Shown: positions 42,848 to 50,205 of the stretch, in pieces
Numbering within the stretch: the first letter of the stretch is position 1
Layout of the letters: the number at the start of each line of letters is the position of its first letter
Origin: Candidatus Saccharimonadota bacterium
GTDB taxonomy: Bacteria; Patescibacteriota; Saccharimonadia; Saccharimonadales; UBA4665
DNA length: 64,000 nucleotides
Reading direction: 5' to 3'
NCBI GenBank assembly: GCA_028286245.1
Contig: JAQBRY010000004.1
Span: 186,001 to 250,000, forward strand
Made by a program: the position numbers and the translations under genes
Notes under the pieces: generated by a model
Seen by the model: only the letters and a program-made list of their open reading frames with translations
What the model was told of the DNA's origin: nothing
Database searches by the model: none

Positions 42848-42970
42848 TCCTTAATAGATGGTAATGCAGCCATAGTATCATGTTGGCGTAGCCTGTAGCC
42901 AGCATATAGTTACAGATAAGGAATTTTGGATATTTTGCGTATAAATCACTAGTTTTAGCACGTTTTGAGC

Positions 42971-42976
42971 TATACT
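42971..42976 (+). promoter_or_regulatory. probable -10 box of the methyltransferase-helicase-nuclease operon
   Basis: TATACT about 36 bases before the GTG start; a second box, TACAAT, follows at 42983-42988. No good -35 was found. The 164-base region divides the divergent ABC and defence-type operons. Confidence 0.5.
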
Positions 42977-43011
42977 ATTTAGTACAATGAGTTTCATATC
43001 TAACAGAGGCG

Positions 43012-45822
43012 GTGCTTAAGGTGCCTATTACGTTTTCTCAGGCCCAGCGCAATGTCACAGAACTTGCTAATCGCACCACGTACAGTAAGGATGTTGTGTT
43101 TGAATTGCTAGCAGCCTTTGGCCGTTCGGCATCGGCCATCGCCAAACTTAGGAATGGCACCAATAACCTGGCCACCGACCAAGCAAATGAAGTACTGCAG
43201 CGCGGTGTCGTATATTTTAAGCAAACACAACAATCCGGCCTGCTTCTAGACATCGAAAAATTGGAACAAGATCCGCTGACGGTACGCTACAATCCGCGCT
43301 ATCTCATCGTCACCGACTATCGGCAACTGGTAGCAAAAGATACCAAAAAGGGCAGCACCCTTGACATTAAGATTCAGGACATTGATCGGCATGTTGATTT
43401 TTTTTATGGCTGGACCGGCAACGAGGTCACCAGCGAGCGGACCGAAGCCGTGGCCGATCGTCGAGCTGCCGACAAAATGAAGGAACTGTACTACGAAGTA
43501 GCTGATGTTAATCGACAAAAGTTTGCAGTACCGGGCAATAATTTCCGTCACGACCTAAACGTATTCTTTACGCGACTGCTGTTTTGCTTTTTTGCAGAAG
43601 ACACCCGGGTGTTTAGTAAAACGGATGCCAACATTTTTACTGACGCTATTCGTGATTTTACGCAGCTAGATGGCAGTGACCTTAATGAATTTCTAGAGAC
43701 ACTGTTTATGGCACTCGACAGCAAAGAAAAGGGCCAGTTTAGCAGCCCCTTCTCAAACTTTCCTTACGTTAACGGCAGTCTGTTCGACACCAAACGAGAT
43801 TTTACGGTCCCAGACTTTAATGCCCAAGCCCGCAAACTTATCATTGACTGCGGTTCACTCGATTGGTCAAAAATAAGTCCTGACATTTTTGGTTCTATGT
43901 TCCAAAGTATTGTCGAAGAAGAGCGTCGGGCCGCCCACGGCATGCACTACACGTCGGTACCAAATATTATGAAGACCATCGAACCGCTATTCTTAAACGA
44001 ACTTCGCGATGAATTTGATAAGTACTACGACAACGTTCCCCGCCTTATAAAGCTCTACGATCGGATTGCAAAAATTAAAGTTTTTGACCCCGCCTGTGGT
44101 TCCGGTAATTTTCTTATTATTGCCTACAAAGAACTGCGCAAGCTGGAGCACGGCATTATTGAACAGATTATTGAACAGCGTGGCGCCCTGGAAGGTCTGA
44201 AGCTTACCAGTAGTATTAATCTTGATAACTTTTACGGCATCGAGATAGATGATTTTGCCCACGAAATTGCCATCCTTTCGCTATACCTCGTAAAGCACCA
44301 AATGAATATTGAGTTCCAAAAACAGTTTGGTAAAGAAATTGAGCTCATCCCCCTCAAAGATAAGGCCAATATTATCCTCGGTAATGCCGCGCGGTTGGAC
44401 TGGCAAGACGTTTGCCCAAACATTGCCCGGAGCGGCAGTACCAGCCTAGAACAGGGCCAGCTCATAGAAGACGACTACCAGCAAGCAGTCCTACTTAACG
44501 AACAGGATACTAAACAGTGGGACGAAATTTACCTTATAGGCAACCCGCCTTATCAAGGCGGCAAAACCATCAAAGAAGCTTCCATGAAGGAGGACGTTAA
44601 ACGCGCCTTTGCCGGCAGTAGCTACTCAAAAAATATCGACTATATTTCTATTTGGTTTTTGCAGGGTGCAAGGTATATTGCCGGCTCAAAAGCAAAGCTG
44701 GCATTTGTTTCCACCAACTCCATTTGCCAAGGTGAGCAAGTAAGTATGCTCTGGCCCCGGGTGTTTAAACTAGGTCTCGAAATTCAGTTTGCCTACACCT
44801 CGTTCAAATGGAAAAACAGTGCCAAAGATAACGCCGGCGTTACCTGCGTTATTGTGTGTCTGGGCGCTGTCAGTCCAAATAAAAAACTACTCTTTACAGA
44901 CAACGTCGGCGCCAGCGTTGAGCATATTAATGCCTACCTTATTGCCAGCTCCAATGACACCATAGTCACCAAGCGCTCCTCGCCATTATCCGACCTACCT
45001 AAGATCGCACTAGGAAGCATGCCTAAAGACGGCGGCGGCCTAGTGCTCACAAAACAGGAATATCTGGATGCAGTTAACGCTGATCCGGCTGTGGAACACT
45101 ACATCAAAAAGTTTGTGGGCTCGGACAATTTTATTAAGGGAGTTGACCGCTACTGCCTATGGATTACGCCCGATCAGTACAATGAGGCCAAACAGGTACC
45201 ATTTATAGCCGAGCGGCTGGAAATGGTACGTAAGTATCGCAGCGACAGTGACGCCGAAAGTACCGTTGCCTATGCCAGTAAACCCTACCGCTTTATTCAG
45301 ATTAGCTATCAAAATACTGATTCAATTATTATCCCGCGTATTTCGTCGGAGCGCCGCGTCTACATCCCCGTTGGCTATCTCGATAAAAACAGCGTGGTCT
45401 CCGATGGAGCCAATGTTATTTACAATGCTGAGCCCTCTATTTTTGGGCTGATGTCCTCCCTGATGCATAATGTGTGGGTTAAGGCCGTATCTGGTGGGCT
45501 GGAAACGCGAATCAACTATTCGTCCACGCTCTGCTATAACAACTTTCCGGTGCCCACACTCAGCCAGCAAGATAAGCAGCAGCTCACCGCCCAAGCCCGT
45601 GGGGTGCTCTTTGCCAGAGAAAATCACAGCGAAAAGAGCTTGGCAGAAATGTATGATCCGGATAAAATGCCGGAAGATTTGCGCCAGGCGCATCACGAAC
45701 TCGACCTGGTCGTGGACCAACTGTACCGCAGTAAGCCCTACGAGCATAATGAAGCCCGCTTGGCCGATCTGTTCACGCTCTACGAACAAATGACACTAAC
45801 CGCCCTAACAAGAAAGCCCTAG
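43012..45822 (+). CDS. MmeI-like DNA adenine methyltransferase (Type IIL-related), nuclease motif not seen
   Basis: 936 residues. SAM-binding motif I FDPACGSGNFLII (about 358-370) and catalytic motif IV GNPPYQG (about 508-514) mark an N6-adenine methylase. Around them are the MmeI-type helical spacer (FTRLLFCFFAEDTRVF), a target-recognition region ending in YNNFPVP, and the C-terminal domain (MYDPDKMPEDLRQAHHELDL). At the N-terminus, where MmeI has its PD-ExK nuclease, the corresponding strand reads GVVYFKQTQ and lacks the E-x-K pair, so this protein probably only methylates and specifies the site. Start GTG 43012 (AGAGG very close) or GTG 43021. Confidence 0.9.
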   Translation: MLKVPITFSQAQRNVTELANRTTYSKDVVFELLAAFGRSASAIAKLRNGTNNLATDQANEVLQRGVVYFKQTQQSGLLLDIEKLEQDPLTVRYNPRYLIVTDYRQLVAKDTKKGSTLDIKIQDIDRHVDFFYGWTGNEVTSERTEAVADRRAADKMKELYYEVADVNRQKFAVPGNNFRHDLNVFFTRLLFCFFAEDTRVFSKTDANIFTDAIRDFTQLDGSDLNEFLETLFMALDSKEKGQFSSPFSNFPYVNGSLFDTKRDFTVPDFNAQARKLIIDCGSLDWSKISPDIFGSMFQSIVEEERRAAHGMHYTSVPNIMKTIEPLFLNELRDEFDKYYDNVPRLIKLYDRIAKIKVFDPACGSGNFLIIAYKELRKLEHGIIEQIIEQRGALEGLKLTSSINLDNFYGIEIDDFAHEIAILSLYLVKHQMNIEFQKQFGKEIELIPLKDKANIILGNAARLDWQDVCPNIARSGSTSLEQGQLIEDDYQQAVLLNEQDTKQWDEIYLIGNPPYQGGKTIKEASMKEDVKRAFAGSSYSKNIDYISIWFLQGARYIAGSKAKLAFVSTNSICQGEQVSMLWPRVFKLGLEIQFAYTSFKWKNSAKDNAGVTCVIVCLGAVSPNKKLLFTDNVGASVEHINAYLIASSNDTIVTKRSSPLSDLPKIALGSMPKDGGGLVLTKQEYLDAVNADPAVEHYIKKFVGSDNFIKGVDRYCLWITPDQYNEAKQVPFIAERLEMVRKYRSDSDAESTVAYASKPYRFIQISYQNTDSIIIPRISSERRVYIPVGYLDKNSVVSDGANVIYNAEPSIFGLMSSLMHNVWVKAVSGGLETRINYSSTLCYNNFPVPTLSQQDKQQLTAQARGVLFARENHSEKSLAEMYDPDKMPEDLRQAHHELDLVVDQLYRSKPYEHNEARLADLFTLYEQMTLTALTRKP

Positions 45823-45824
45823 CC

Positions 45825-47807
45825 ATGTCTGATGCCGCCACGCAAAACGAAACTATTAACATCGTTGACGTCAGCTACGAGCAGACGGGTGCTAGCACTA
45901 AAACTGATGCGCTCGGTATGCGCGAAATGCAACAACGGGCCTACGCCAAACGCAGCAGTCGGCATCTACTCATAAAGGCGCCGCCGGCATCAGGCAAATC
46001 GCGCGCGCTGATGTATATTGGCCTCGATAAACTGCACAATCAAGGCAAGCGCAAAGTTATAGTTTCGGTACCGGAACGAACTATTGGCGCATCATTTGAG
46101 ACCACCGATTTGCAGCAAGAAGGTTTTTTTGCCAACTGGGAAGTAGCACCCCGTAATAACCTCTGCGTCGGTAGTGGCGATGATAAAAGCAAGGTTGCTG
46201 CCTTTAGCCGCTTTATGGCGGGCGACGACCCAATATTGGTCTGTACTCACGCTACGCTTCGCTTTGCCTTTGAGGTCCTCGACGCAGCGGCATTTAATAA
46301 TTGCGTGCTGGCTATTGACGAATTTCACCATATTTCTACCAGCGAAACCAGCAAGCTCGGTGAGCTGCTGCACCAAATTATGGCCCAGTCGGATGTCCAG
46401 ATTATTGCCATGACCGGATCATATTTTCGTGGTGATGCCGTCCCGATCCTCACACCAGAAGATGAGGCCGAGTTTGATAAAGTAACCTACACCTATTATG
46501 AGCAGCTCAATGGTTACACCTATTTAAAAACACTGGGCATTGGTTACCACTTTTACACCGGTAGCTACCTCAGTGATGGCGCGCTTGATGCCGTACTCGA
46601 TACCACTAAAAAGACTATTATCCATATTCCCAGCGTCAATTCTAAAGAATCTACCCAGGTTGGCAAACGTGAGGAGGTCGAGCAAATTTATGACCTGATT
46701 GGCGAATGGCAGGAGCAGGATCCAGCGAGCGGCATCGAAATTGTTAAAACCAGTGACGGTCGCCTACTCAAGGTGGCCAATCTGGTAGAAGATGAGCCAA
46801 ATCACCGCGCAAAAATTAGTGAATACCTGCGGCAGGTTGCTCGCAATGATATCGCCGGCATTGATATTATCATTGCGCTTGGTATGGCCAAAGAGGGTTT
46901 TGACTGGCCCTACTGCGAGCAGGCCTTAACCATTGGCTACCGGGCCAGCCTGACAGAAATTGTACAAATCATCGGCCGCTGCACGCGTGATAGCTACAAC
47001 AAGTCGCACGCCCAGTTTACTAATTTAATCGTGCAGCCAAACGGCACCAAGGATGATGTTCAAATATCGGTGAACAACATGCTCAAAGCCATTACAGCGT
47101 CCCTACTCATGGAACAAGTACTGGCACCTAATTTTACCTTTAAACCACGTACCTCGCCTGAGCAAAAAGCCCGGGCCGGAGAAGTATTTGTAAAAGGCTT
47201 GCGAAAACCGCCGAGCGACATGGTTAAACAAATCCTTGCTACACAGCTGGAGGACCTGACGGCCGACGTGCTCCAAAATACACAGATCCAGCGAGCGGCA
47301 GCCGCCGGCCACACCGGTGAGTATATGAAGCACCTGCAGTCCAAGATCATTCGAAACCGCCTCCCCGGCCTGACAGAAGACGAAGTAGAGGTAACCAGGC
47401 AGTACCTAGCAGCCAACTTGGCTTTTAAAACTGCCATTCCAACCAAGGATGAGAACGGCGACACCAAGTTTTTAACTATGGCCAATAGCTTTATAAATCT
47501 CGACGAGTTAAGCATCGATCTGATCGATTCCATAAACCCTTTCCAGCATGCCTTTGAAGTGCTGTCTAAAAAAGTAGGTGCCGACGTGTTCCGAGTTGTC
47601 CAAGACACCATTGCCGGTTCACGAATTGACATGTCAGACGAAGACGCCTTGGCACTAGTACCAAATATTCAGGCCTTTGTGGTGGCACACAATGGCAAAT
47701 ATCCTGCCCTCAATGCCGATGATAAGCAGGAACAGCTGCTTGCCCAGGCACAAGCCTATATAACCGCCCGCAAAATGCAATGGCTCCGCGAAAAGCAGGC
47801 CGAGTAA
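45825..47807 (+). CDS. DEAH-family superfamily 2 helicase/translocase of the defence-type cassette
   Basis: 660 residues. Walker A IKAPPASGKS (about 49-58), motif II DEFHH (about 164-168), motif III MTGSYF, and motif VI QIIGRCTRD (about 380-388) after GMAKEGFDW place it with ResIII-like SF2 translocases used by restriction systems. The last 230 residues are helical and unassigned. It starts two bases after the methyltransferase stop and ends one base before the GIY-YIG gene, so all three are almost certainly made together. It probably moves along DNA to license or drive cleavage. Confidence 0.9.
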   Translation: MSDAATQNETINIVDVSYEQTGASTKTDALGMREMQQRAYAKRSSRHLLIKAPPASGKSRALMYIGLDKLHNQGKRKVIVSVPERTIGASFETTDLQQEGFFANWEVAPRNNLCVGSGDDKSKVAAFSRFMAGDDPILVCTHATLRFAFEVLDAAAFNNCVLAIDEFHHISTSETSKLGELLHQIMAQSDVQIIAMTGSYFRGDAVPILTPEDEAEFDKVTYTYYEQLNGYTYLKTLGIGYHFYTGSYLSDGALDAVLDTTKKTIIHIPSVNSKESTQVGKREEVEQIYDLIGEWQEQDPASGIEIVKTSDGRLLKVANLVEDEPNHRAKISEYLRQVARNDIAGIDIIIALGMAKEGFDWPYCEQALTIGYRASLTEIVQIIGRCTRDSYNKSHAQFTNLIVQPNGTKDDVQISVNNMLKAITASLLMEQVLAPNFTFKPRTSPEQKARAGEVFVKGLRKPPSDMVKQILATQLEDLTADVLQNTQIQRAAAAGHTGEYMKHLQSKIIRNRLPGLTEDEVEVTRQYLAANLAFKTAIPTKDENGDTKFLTMANSFINLDELSIDLIDSINPFQHAFEVLSKKVGADVFRVVQDTIAGSRIDMSDEDALALVPNIQAFVVAHNGKYPALNADDKQEQLLAQAQAYITARKMQWLREKQAE

Positions 47808-47808
47808 C

Positions 47809-48963
47809 ATGGAATTTTCCGACGAGCTCATTAAGCTGTTTGAGTCTGACGAGGGCCTATTTGACCCTCCAAAAAAGGCCATACCCGTCACGTCCGACGA
47901 TCGTTTGACTGAATCTTTTAAAAAAATTACCGAGTTTGTGGAGCAACATAACCGAATGCCGAGTGTTGACGCCCAAGATATTTCCGAAGCCATGATTGCC
48001 ACCCGCCTGGCAGCCATCAGGAACGATGCCGGCAAGGTTGCAGCGCTAAAACCCGTCGACACATTGGGCCTCCTCGACATGCCGGCAGCACCCGCGTCTA
48101 TGGACGAATTATTTAGCAATGATACCTTTGGCCTCTTTAATACTCCTGCCGATCAGATACTCGACGTCAAACATGTCCCGGTACGCCTAAGATCACCCAT
48201 CGAGTCAAAAGCCCAACGAACCAGGGCCCAAGATTTTGAAAGCTATAAGGCCGGCTTTGAGGAGCAGCAAGTCAAACTGGCCAGCGGCGAGCTCAAGCTG
48301 GTTAGGTATACCACTGTCGACCAACTCTATTTGGACCACTACTACGTGCAGGATGGCTTGATGTTAAAAATTATTGACGTTGGCGAAAAAAAGCGCGTTT
48401 ACGATCGCAACAAAGAGCGCTTTCGAGTGATATTCGAAAACGGCACCGAATCCAATATGTACCGCCGCTCGTTGTCGCAACGTTTGTACGAGAATGGATT
48501 TGCGGTGGTTGCACCCGACTACACTGGAGAATACGCACAGCTCAGTGAGGATGATGTTATAAAGGGTTATATTTACGTCTTGGCATCTAAGAGCACCGCC
48601 GAGCACATTACCGCCATACAAGACCTCTACAAAATCGGCTTTTCAACCACCCCTGTGGCCGAGCGCATAAAACATGCCAAAAAAGATCCTACCTATCTTA
48701 TGTCAGACGTAGAAGTCGTCGATAGCTACACGGTAACTGGTGATTACAATCCACAAAAGATTGAGCATTTTTTGCATCGAATTTTTTCTGAGGCGGCAAT
48801 TGACATAAATATTATTGATGCCGACGGCAATGATTACCGACCTCGGGAATGGTACACCGTGCCGCTGCCAGTTATTGAGCAGGCCATTAATCTATTGCTC
48901 AATGGTGATATTATTCATTACCATTACGACGCCACTACCCAGAAGATTGTGCCGACTACCTAG
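47809..48963 (+). CDS. GIY-YIG nuclease (T5orf172-like) of the defence-type cassette
   Basis: 384 residues. The C-terminal GIY-YIG domain is clear: KGYIYVLASKS (about 251-261), LYKIGFS (about 271-277), catalytic Arg in VAERIKHAKK (about 283), metal Glu in QKIEHFLHRIF (about 318) and the T5orf172-type PREWYTVPL near the end. The N-terminal 240 residues have no motif I know; a helical region with NRMPSVDAQ-like helicase-associated look and a DNA-contact-like MYRRSLSQRL occur. It probably supplies the cutting activity missing in the methyltransferase. Confidence 0.88.
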   Translation: MEFSDELIKLFESDEGLFDPPKKAIPVTSDDRLTESFKKITEFVEQHNRMPSVDAQDISEAMIATRLAAIRNDAGKVAALKPVDTLGLLDMPAAPASMDELFSNDTFGLFNTPADQILDVKHVPVRLRSPIESKAQRTRAQDFESYKAGFEEQQVKLASGELKLVRYTTVDQLYLDHYYVQDGLMLKIIDVGEKKRVYDRNKERFRVIFENGTESNMYRRSLSQRLYENGFAVVAPDYTGEYAQLSEDDVIKGYIYVLASKSTAEHITAIQDLYKIGFSTTPVAERIKHAKKDPTYLMSDVEVVDSYTVTGDYNPQKIEHFLHRIFSEAAIDINIIDADGNDYRPREWYTVPLPVIEQAINLLLNGDIIHYHYDATTQKIVPTT

Positions 48964-49035
48964 TAGCTTTAGGGCAAATCATGCTGTCATGCCGTCCAAA
49001 TAAGCGTATGCTATGTCTATAACAAAGGAGATAAT

Positions 49036-49413
49036 ATGTTAAAAGACGCACCAGCCTTTAGTGGCTTTTCAACCGATGACGTGGCTAAGGCCCAAGTATT
49101 TTATAGTGAGATGCTGGGGCTGGATGCCCACATGAATGACATGGGCATACTCACGCTTAAATTTAGTAATGGTGGTCACACCATCGTCTATCCAAAGGGT
49201 GATCAACACGTCCCGGCCGAGTTTACTGTTCTAAACTTTCCGGTCCGCGACATAGACAGCACCGTTGATGATTTAACGGCTAAGGGTGTCAGCTTTGAAC
49301 ACTACGAGGGCATGGGTCTGGACGAAAAAGGTATTGCAAGGTCCGGTGGCCCGCTGATTGCCTGGTTTAAAGATCCGGCCGGCAATATACTGTCGGTTAT
49401 TCAGCAGAACTAG
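49036..49413 (+). CDS. VOC/glyoxalase-family protein
   Basis: 125 residues forming the paired beta-alpha-beta-beta-beta units of the vicinal-oxygen-chelate fold: FSTDDVAKAQVFYSEMLGL at the start, FPVRDIDSTVDDLTAKGVSFE in the second half and WFKDPAGNILSVIQ at the end. Possible roles are glyoxalase, dioxygenase or resistance protein; metal ligands cannot be assigned surely. AAAGGAG precedes the ATG. It follows the nuclease gene by 72 bases and appears to have its own promoter region. Confidence 0.9.
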   Translation: MLKDAPAFSGFSTDDVAKAQVFYSEMLGLDAHMNDMGILTLKFSNGGHTIVYPKGDQHVPAEFTVLNFPVRDIDSTVDDLTAKGVSFEHYEGMGLDEKGIARSGGPLIAWFKDPAGNILSVIQQN

Positions 49414-49479
49414 CAGTCACTCAAGCCACTGACTATACGTTTCAGGGGTTTCAAAAAATGACATGCATGCTTCTTTTGG

Positions 49480-50151
49480 TTAGTCGCCAAACAAGTCATT
49501 GCGGCCCGTTACGATGCTAATGACATTAATCATATCAGCCATCGCCGTAGATACCAGACTTGGTTCGCCGGTGATGCCATGTAAACTTTGATCAAATTCA
49601 TTTGCAGCAACTGATGTGCTATCAGTAAAATCAGTTGCTGCTACCACTCTACCGGTAATAACGGTCAAGAAACCCTGCTCCTGTTGCGGAACAAAATCTA
49701 CCGCATCATATACGGGCCGACCGTTGCGTGTGATGTATGCGGCTACGGCTTTTTCGCCAATTTTGTACTGCACCCGGTTGAGTACGGTAACGGTGCGTGT
49801 ATCGGTTTCTAAGGCAATGTCCTTACAGTTAGTTTCTATAACACCTAGCCTTGTAAGCTCGCTGCTGTCAACATCCTCTAAGTCACCCGTGATTTGTTCC
49901 GGTAGCCGTAGCAAATGAGTGTCGGTACCACTATGGGTGGCAATCCGGACACCGGCTGGATTGCTTTGGGCGTCATACTTTCGAATAACGCGGAGCAGGA
50001 AGTGATTTTCCGGGAAGCCCTTTCCGGCTTCCAGCCGACGTTGCAAATAATAGCCGGGGCGCATTCCTTGGCGATATACGTCATCACCCAGCTCTTCACT
50101 AAGAGCAACTACCGTATCTAAAAATTTCTCTGGGCTAATAACATTGGACAT
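49480..50151 (-). CDS. unknown protein
   Basis: 223 residues, not recognised. Soluble with a charged N-terminal helix (FLDTVVALSEELGDD) and a beta-rich centre (TRTVTVLNRVQYKIGEKAVAAY). No Shine-Dalgarno is seen; TATAAT sits nine bases before the ATG. Stands alone between the VOC gene and a membrane protein gene. Confidence 0.65.
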   Translation of the reverse strand: MSNVISPEKFLDTVVALSEELGDDVYRQGMRPGYYLQRRLEAGKGFPENHFLLRVIRKYDAQSNPAGVRIATHSGTDTHLLRLPEQITGDLEDVDSSELTRLGVIETNCKDIALETDTRTVTVLNRVQYKIGEKAVAAYITRNGRPVYDAVDFVPQQEQGFLTVITGRVVAATDFTDSTSVAANEFDQSLHGITGEPSLVSTAMADMINVISIVTGRNDLFGD

Positions 50152-50205
50152 GAAAGTATTATTATAAATTTTTTAACTATTCGCGTCAATAGTAGCCAGT
50201 ATACC

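Follow-up and report, generated by a model that had tools for sequence, protein, structure and literature searches.

The closest described relative of the locus studied here is the gene cluster published as dnmA(yeeA)-yeeB-yeeC of Bacillus subtilis (PMC7261158, PMC9973331), the synteny of which has been surveyed across bacteria (PMC9973331). DnmA of B. subtilis generates m6A at GACGAG (PMC7261158). PMC7261158 traces to Morgan et al. 2009 the observation that the nuclease motif is missing, attention to the neighbouring genes and the suggestion of a Type I-like system; the defence-island prediction is ascribed in PMC7261158 and PMC9973331 to Makarova et al. 2011. Deletion of dnmA, yeeB and yeeC left the phage sensitivity of B. 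subtilis unchanged, and the cluster was called a relic in this species, in which YeeB and YeeC have C-terminal stretches missing (PMC9973331); deletion of dnmA also left plasmid transformation unchanged (PMC7261158). In Vibrio crassostreae, which has homologues of the cluster, deletion mutants showed raised sensitivity to some phages, and GACGAG was found not to be depleted in Bacillus phages (PMC9973331). Because the B. subtilis deletions affect neither phage sensitivity nor plasmid transformation, restriction by DnmA-YeeB-YeeC clusters is not a general given, and we found no biochemistry of the helicase-nuclease pair in the literature.

We analysed a 64,000-nt stretch of DNA (the window) from a Saccharibacterium with a 1.13-Mb genome in four contigs, and found that positions 43012-48963 hold three intact + strand genes arranged head-to-tail, 2 nt separating the first from the second and 1 nt the second from the third. 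The features of this cassette are as follows:

42848..43011, no strand: A+T-rich spacer (36% GC) from the divergent ABC-transporter gene to the cassette, presumed promoter region
43012..45822, + strand: MmeI-family (Type IIL-derived) N6-adenine DNA methyltransferase carrying a target-recognition domain, DnmA/YeeA type, GTG start, 936 aa
45825..47807, + strand: SF2 helicase/translocase, YeeB type, ATG start, 660 aa
47809..48963, + strand: GIY-YIG (T5orf172/MUG113) nuclease, YeeC type, ATG start, 384 aa

A promoter and terminator scan at the cassette returned sites not above the number in shuffles. An initial annotation of this DNA had described the head-to-tail genes with gaps of two and one bases, which the ORF coordinates bore out to the base, and had reported intact methylase, helicase and GIY-YIG motifs, all of which were located in a gene order that recurs across phyla and is not due to chance. 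Its further statement that the set could not be matched to a named system did not hold: the literature already contains a set built of these three subunits, with the same genes in the same order (PMC7261158, PMC9973331), a finding that it had itself named as evidence that would count against it. A new, unnamed architecture was therefore rejected, and the window trio is a further member of a known, widespread and under-studied restriction-type cluster rather than a new system. Like the DnmA-YeeB-YeeC cluster, it comprises an MmeI-family methyltransferase that lacks the nuclease motif of its N-terminal domain, an SF2 helicase immediately downstream and a T5orf172/GIY-YIG protein directly after, and it differs in its host, a Saccharibacterium. 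Judging from its sequence, the trio is real and intact, and probably functional. Within our data, B. subtilis gave an MmeI_TRD match and the full operon was found in two other Bacillus genomes (L014 and L030), of which L030 shares with DnmA the catalytic tyrosine of NPPY at position 465.

MmeI carries its D-x9-E-x-K nuclease site in the N-terminal domain and requires no helicase. The window methyltransferase contains DPACGSGNF at residue 359 and NPPY at 511, shows the full MmeI domain series (PF20464-PF20465-PF20473-PF20466-PF20467; best E 8.5e-98) and matches the MmeI structure 5hr4 at E 1.7e-167. We found D-x9-E-x-K with the exact spacing D67-x9-E77-x-K79 in 5 of 6 stand-alone MmeI relatives from the same class, which are without a helicase or GIY-YIG partner, and at the homologous position in none of 69 DnmA-type methyltransferases, the window protein included. 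In the window protein, E and K were aligned at the catalytic D and E columns and the catalytic K column was gapped. The same loss was seen in all 68 relatives, which were drawn from three-gene loci and the nearest kin of these, with E replacing D in 58, K or R replacing E in 64 and a gap at the catalytic K column in 65; the one D-x9-E-x-K of the L072 methyltransferase lies elsewhere in the protein and is a chance occurrence. From these alignments, the MmeI nuclease is read as dead in the DnmA-type lineage. The lost nuclease motif, together with the co-occurrence described below, ruled out a genuine Type IIL enzyme that lies beside the other two genes by chance. Separately, for a further same-class MmeI-like protein (L119:1919-4747) the alignment around the nuclease site was poor (DILLRPDQQARR), and neither a helicase nor a GIY-YIG gene accompanies it; this protein may represent another Type IIL subgroup.

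The helicase gave a DEAD domain match at E 4.7e-9, and all its motifs are intact (Walker A APPASGKS at 52, DEFHH at 165, TGSY at 197 and IGRCTRD at 383). Its structure model was of moderate confidence (pLDDT 73, pTM 0.60), and a fold search with this model returned generic SF2 helicase matches alone. HsdR families were absent from its profile matches, and its best PADLOC matches, to PbeA, Cas3 and Dpd-type helicases, were weak. Since helicase identity was 53-58% across phyla and 77% to the nearest relatives, we favoured selection as the reading.

To our knowledge, T5orf172 domains are largely uncharacterised. The window nuclease consists of a helical N-terminal region, a small beta-rich middle domain and a C-terminal nuclease domain, which matched T5orf172 at E 3.1e-11 and carries GYIY at 253, YKIG at 274, R286 and E319. 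Among 48 relatives, the catalytic Y, Y, G, R and E positions were invariant or nearly so; a whole-model fold search with the structure model (pTM 0.47) gave no significant match and no GIY-YIG structure. About a dozen conserved C-terminal residues were missing in the alignment from the two Bacillus nucleases (L014 and L030), whereas the conserved C-terminus was present in the window protein, as it was in a Vibrio relative (L013). This complete C-terminus makes an active system more likely here and is not proof of one.

We then considered whether the three genes occur together elsewhere, a check that had been proposed with the initial annotation and that came out in favour of a linked set. Helicase and nuclease were matched in the identical 5 of 195 same-class genomes, and a close methyltransferase adjoins the pair in 4 of those five. 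Close methyltransferases were also found in G024 and G102, both on short contigs, and in G024 a KilA-N gene follows the methyltransferase before the contig ends. A scan of one genome per species returned at least 583 helicase relatives, the best 80 of which were examined as loci and spanned many bacterial phyla plus a single archaeal genome. Among these 80, the methyltransferase lay upstream of the helicase in all 67 loci with enough sequence and the nuclease immediately downstream in all 77 with enough sequence (3 as split ORFs), these loci being the closest relatives, so that rarer arrangements could escape. The pairwise distance matrices of the three proteins across 60 loci correlated at r = 0.86-0.89, where permutation reached at most 0.17, as expected if the three proteins travel together. 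Across these loci the association of motor and cutter is obligate and the three genes share a history; as judged from such comparisons, the helicase does not separate from the nuclease, and the grouping of all three is ancient.

Insertions within the loci were confined to one junction. The methyltransferase-helicase gap exceeded 110 nt in 30 of the 71 loci with a methyltransferase upstream, and exclusion of L022 (split methyltransferase) and L055 (no ORF under the filter) left about 28 real inserts, encoding RhuM, Fic, Bro-N, Schlafen AlbA_2, RloC/PrrC-like AAA_13 ATPases and others; no inserts were found between helicase and nuclease in the loci examined. In Type I systems, inserts are located between hsdS and hsdR (PMC12255303), and rlo genes are harboured by such systems (PMC2610378). 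The restriction of inserts to the methyltransferase-helicase junction, as in Type I, supports the methyltransferase as a putative modification subunit and the helicase-nuclease pair as the putative restriction part. Defence-gene inserts at this junction are possibly less documented than the trio itself. A Desulfococcaceae locus (L041:4259-7952) has the Gabija layout nested at the junction, with a gene for an OLD-TOPRIM ATPase ahead of one for a UvrD helicase. At L023:3814-8025, L018:6231-7877, L017:6429-7934 and L032:7031-8008 the junction holds genes for RloC/PrrC-like ATPase and RhuM, Schlafen AlbA_2 and Fic proteins, possibly as phage-response cargo.

Other named systems share parts of this architecture. 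Type IIL MmeI enzymes (MmeI, NmeAIII) have the five-domain protein and recognition domain in common with the window methyltransferase, whereas D-x9-E-x-K in the same polypeptide is found only in MmeI and the two further genes only in the window. Type I systems (HsdM, HsdS, HsdR) likewise combine a gamma-type methyltransferase, an SF2 motor and a nuclease and have foreign defence genes embedded between the modification and restriction genes; in the window, however, recognition is fused to the methyltransferase through a single MmeI TRD with no separate two-TRD HsdS, and the nuclease is a separate GIY-YIG protein rather than the PD-(D/E)XK domain of HsdR. In Type ISP enzymes (LlaGI, LlaBIII), nuclease, translocase, methyltransferase and recognition domain are combined and the sites are asymmetric (PMC3874165); these are single polypeptides with an Mrr-like nuclease, in contrast to the three proteins with GIY-YIG of the window. 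DISARM class 1 and BREX share an adenine methyltransferase with a helicase, and the window methyltransferase gave weak matches to DrmMI and PglX (38 bits against the PglX profile, cut-off 500). None of the DISARM core proteins DrmA, DrmB (DUF1998) and DrmC (phospholipase-D) was found among the three window proteins, the cassette has no PglZ, BrxC or other core gene of either system, and a DISARM or BREX fragment was rejected because these core genes are absent. A PADLOC run, also proposed with the initial annotation, served in part: the methyltransferase alone was labelled, as Type IIG, while the helicase and nuclease were missed and PADLOC 2.0 holds no model of the trio. The Type IIG label is misleading because the nuclease of the methyltransferase protein is predicted to be dead.

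We consider it likely that the cassette is a Type I-like restriction-modification operon of the DnmA-YeeB-YeeC type. The MmeI-type protein would act as the modification and recognition subunit, reading a short asymmetric site and methylating one adenine, and the helicase (motor) and GIY-YIG protein (cutter) would form the restriction part. At an unmethylated site on incoming DNA, the methyltransferase would load the motor, which would travel along the DNA using ATP, and the GIY-YIG nuclease would cut or nick, while methylation would shield host DNA. That the operon methylates DNA, that its products form a complex, move along DNA at the cost of ATP and cut it, and that it defends this organism are inferences. 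The division of recognition and protection, movement, and cutting over three proteins, already suggested in the initial annotation, is well supported at the sequence level, the MmeI nuclease site having been lost and a helicase and GIY-YIG pair attached.

The cluster could instead be a relic, consisting of an epigenetic orphan methyltransferase and a helicase-nuclease pair that no longer restricts. B. subtilis provides a precedent (PMC9973331), and the same-class genome G179, one of the five above, retains only a decayed copy with small helicase and nuclease remnants (L124:5845-6174 and surroundings) adjoining a recombinase-like gene. The window genes, however, are full length with intact motifs and keep the nuclease C-terminus that is lost in Bacillus relatives, and the helicase identities across phyla and to the nearest relatives point to selection, which leaves a relic improbable here. 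A non-cutting or replication-blocking defence resembling BREX or DISARM, with methylation as a self mark, the helicase acting on foreign DNA and the GIY-YIG protein processing intermediates, would fit the weak helicase matches to PbeA, Cas3 and Dpd-type proteins, the methyltransferase domains common to DrmMI and PglX, and the undepleted GACGAG of Bacillus phages (PMC9973331). We regard it as quite improbable given that the cassette contains no BREX or DISARM partner genes and that the invariant GIY-YIG catalytic residues imply real cleavage.

Within the preferred restriction-modification reading, a broader proposal can be made, which we hold with somewhat more doubt than confidence: that the trio is a distinct, very widespread and active class of ATP-dependent restriction, with an MmeI protein of dead nuclease as the guide of an obligate pair of helicase and GIY-YIG nuclease, and that the methyltransferase-helicase junction is a dedicated slot for nested anti-phage systems. 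If so, the trio would be a counterpart of Type I systems with an unrelated nuclease. It is common, with at least 583 helicase relatives in one species-level collection and 231 plasmid records, yet PADLOC labels its methyltransferase alone, and its presence now extends to a Saccharibacterium with a reduced genome. A concrete, testable model follows from the dead nuclease, from the helicase and nuclease being inseparable and from the insertion slot.

Among the 231 plasmid records with helicase relatives, 116 were predicted to be conjugative. IS26 has truncated the methyltransferase on a Proteus conjugative multidrug-resistance plasmid (L128:7734-12138), where the annotation also divides the nuclease region into two ORFs. 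Many broken copies of the trio may therefore be present in databases.

The cassette of the window occupies a variable genomic slot. Genome G193, from the same genus, keeps the ABC-transporter genes and the TypA-side genes on either side, but its slot (L113:2208-4810) lacks the cassette and instead contains genes for a Fic-family protein and a mechanosensitive channel, among others; the same slot of the window (42848-50200) contains the cassette and a glyoxalase-like gene. Recent transfer marked by foreign base composition was rejected: with 47.5-49.8% GC in the cassette and 48.5-49.1% in the flanks, the base composition is native.

The position-specific recognition rules of MmeI (PMC4833311) were applied to the window methyltransferase after its alignment to MmeI, positions 1 and 4 being unreadable. 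Under these rules, R751-D773 predicts G at position 3, E806-R808 predicts C at position 6, and M645 predicts A at position 2, the least certain of the calls. The 806/808 pair was ER in 27 of 68 relatives and KD in another 27; as these two pairs account for 54/68, the MmeI recognition code is maintained. The resulting motif, N-A-G-N-(m6A)-C, is a tentative prediction with the strongest support at positions 3, 5 and 6, and it departs from the GACGAG of B. subtilis DnmA at position 6, with C in place of G.
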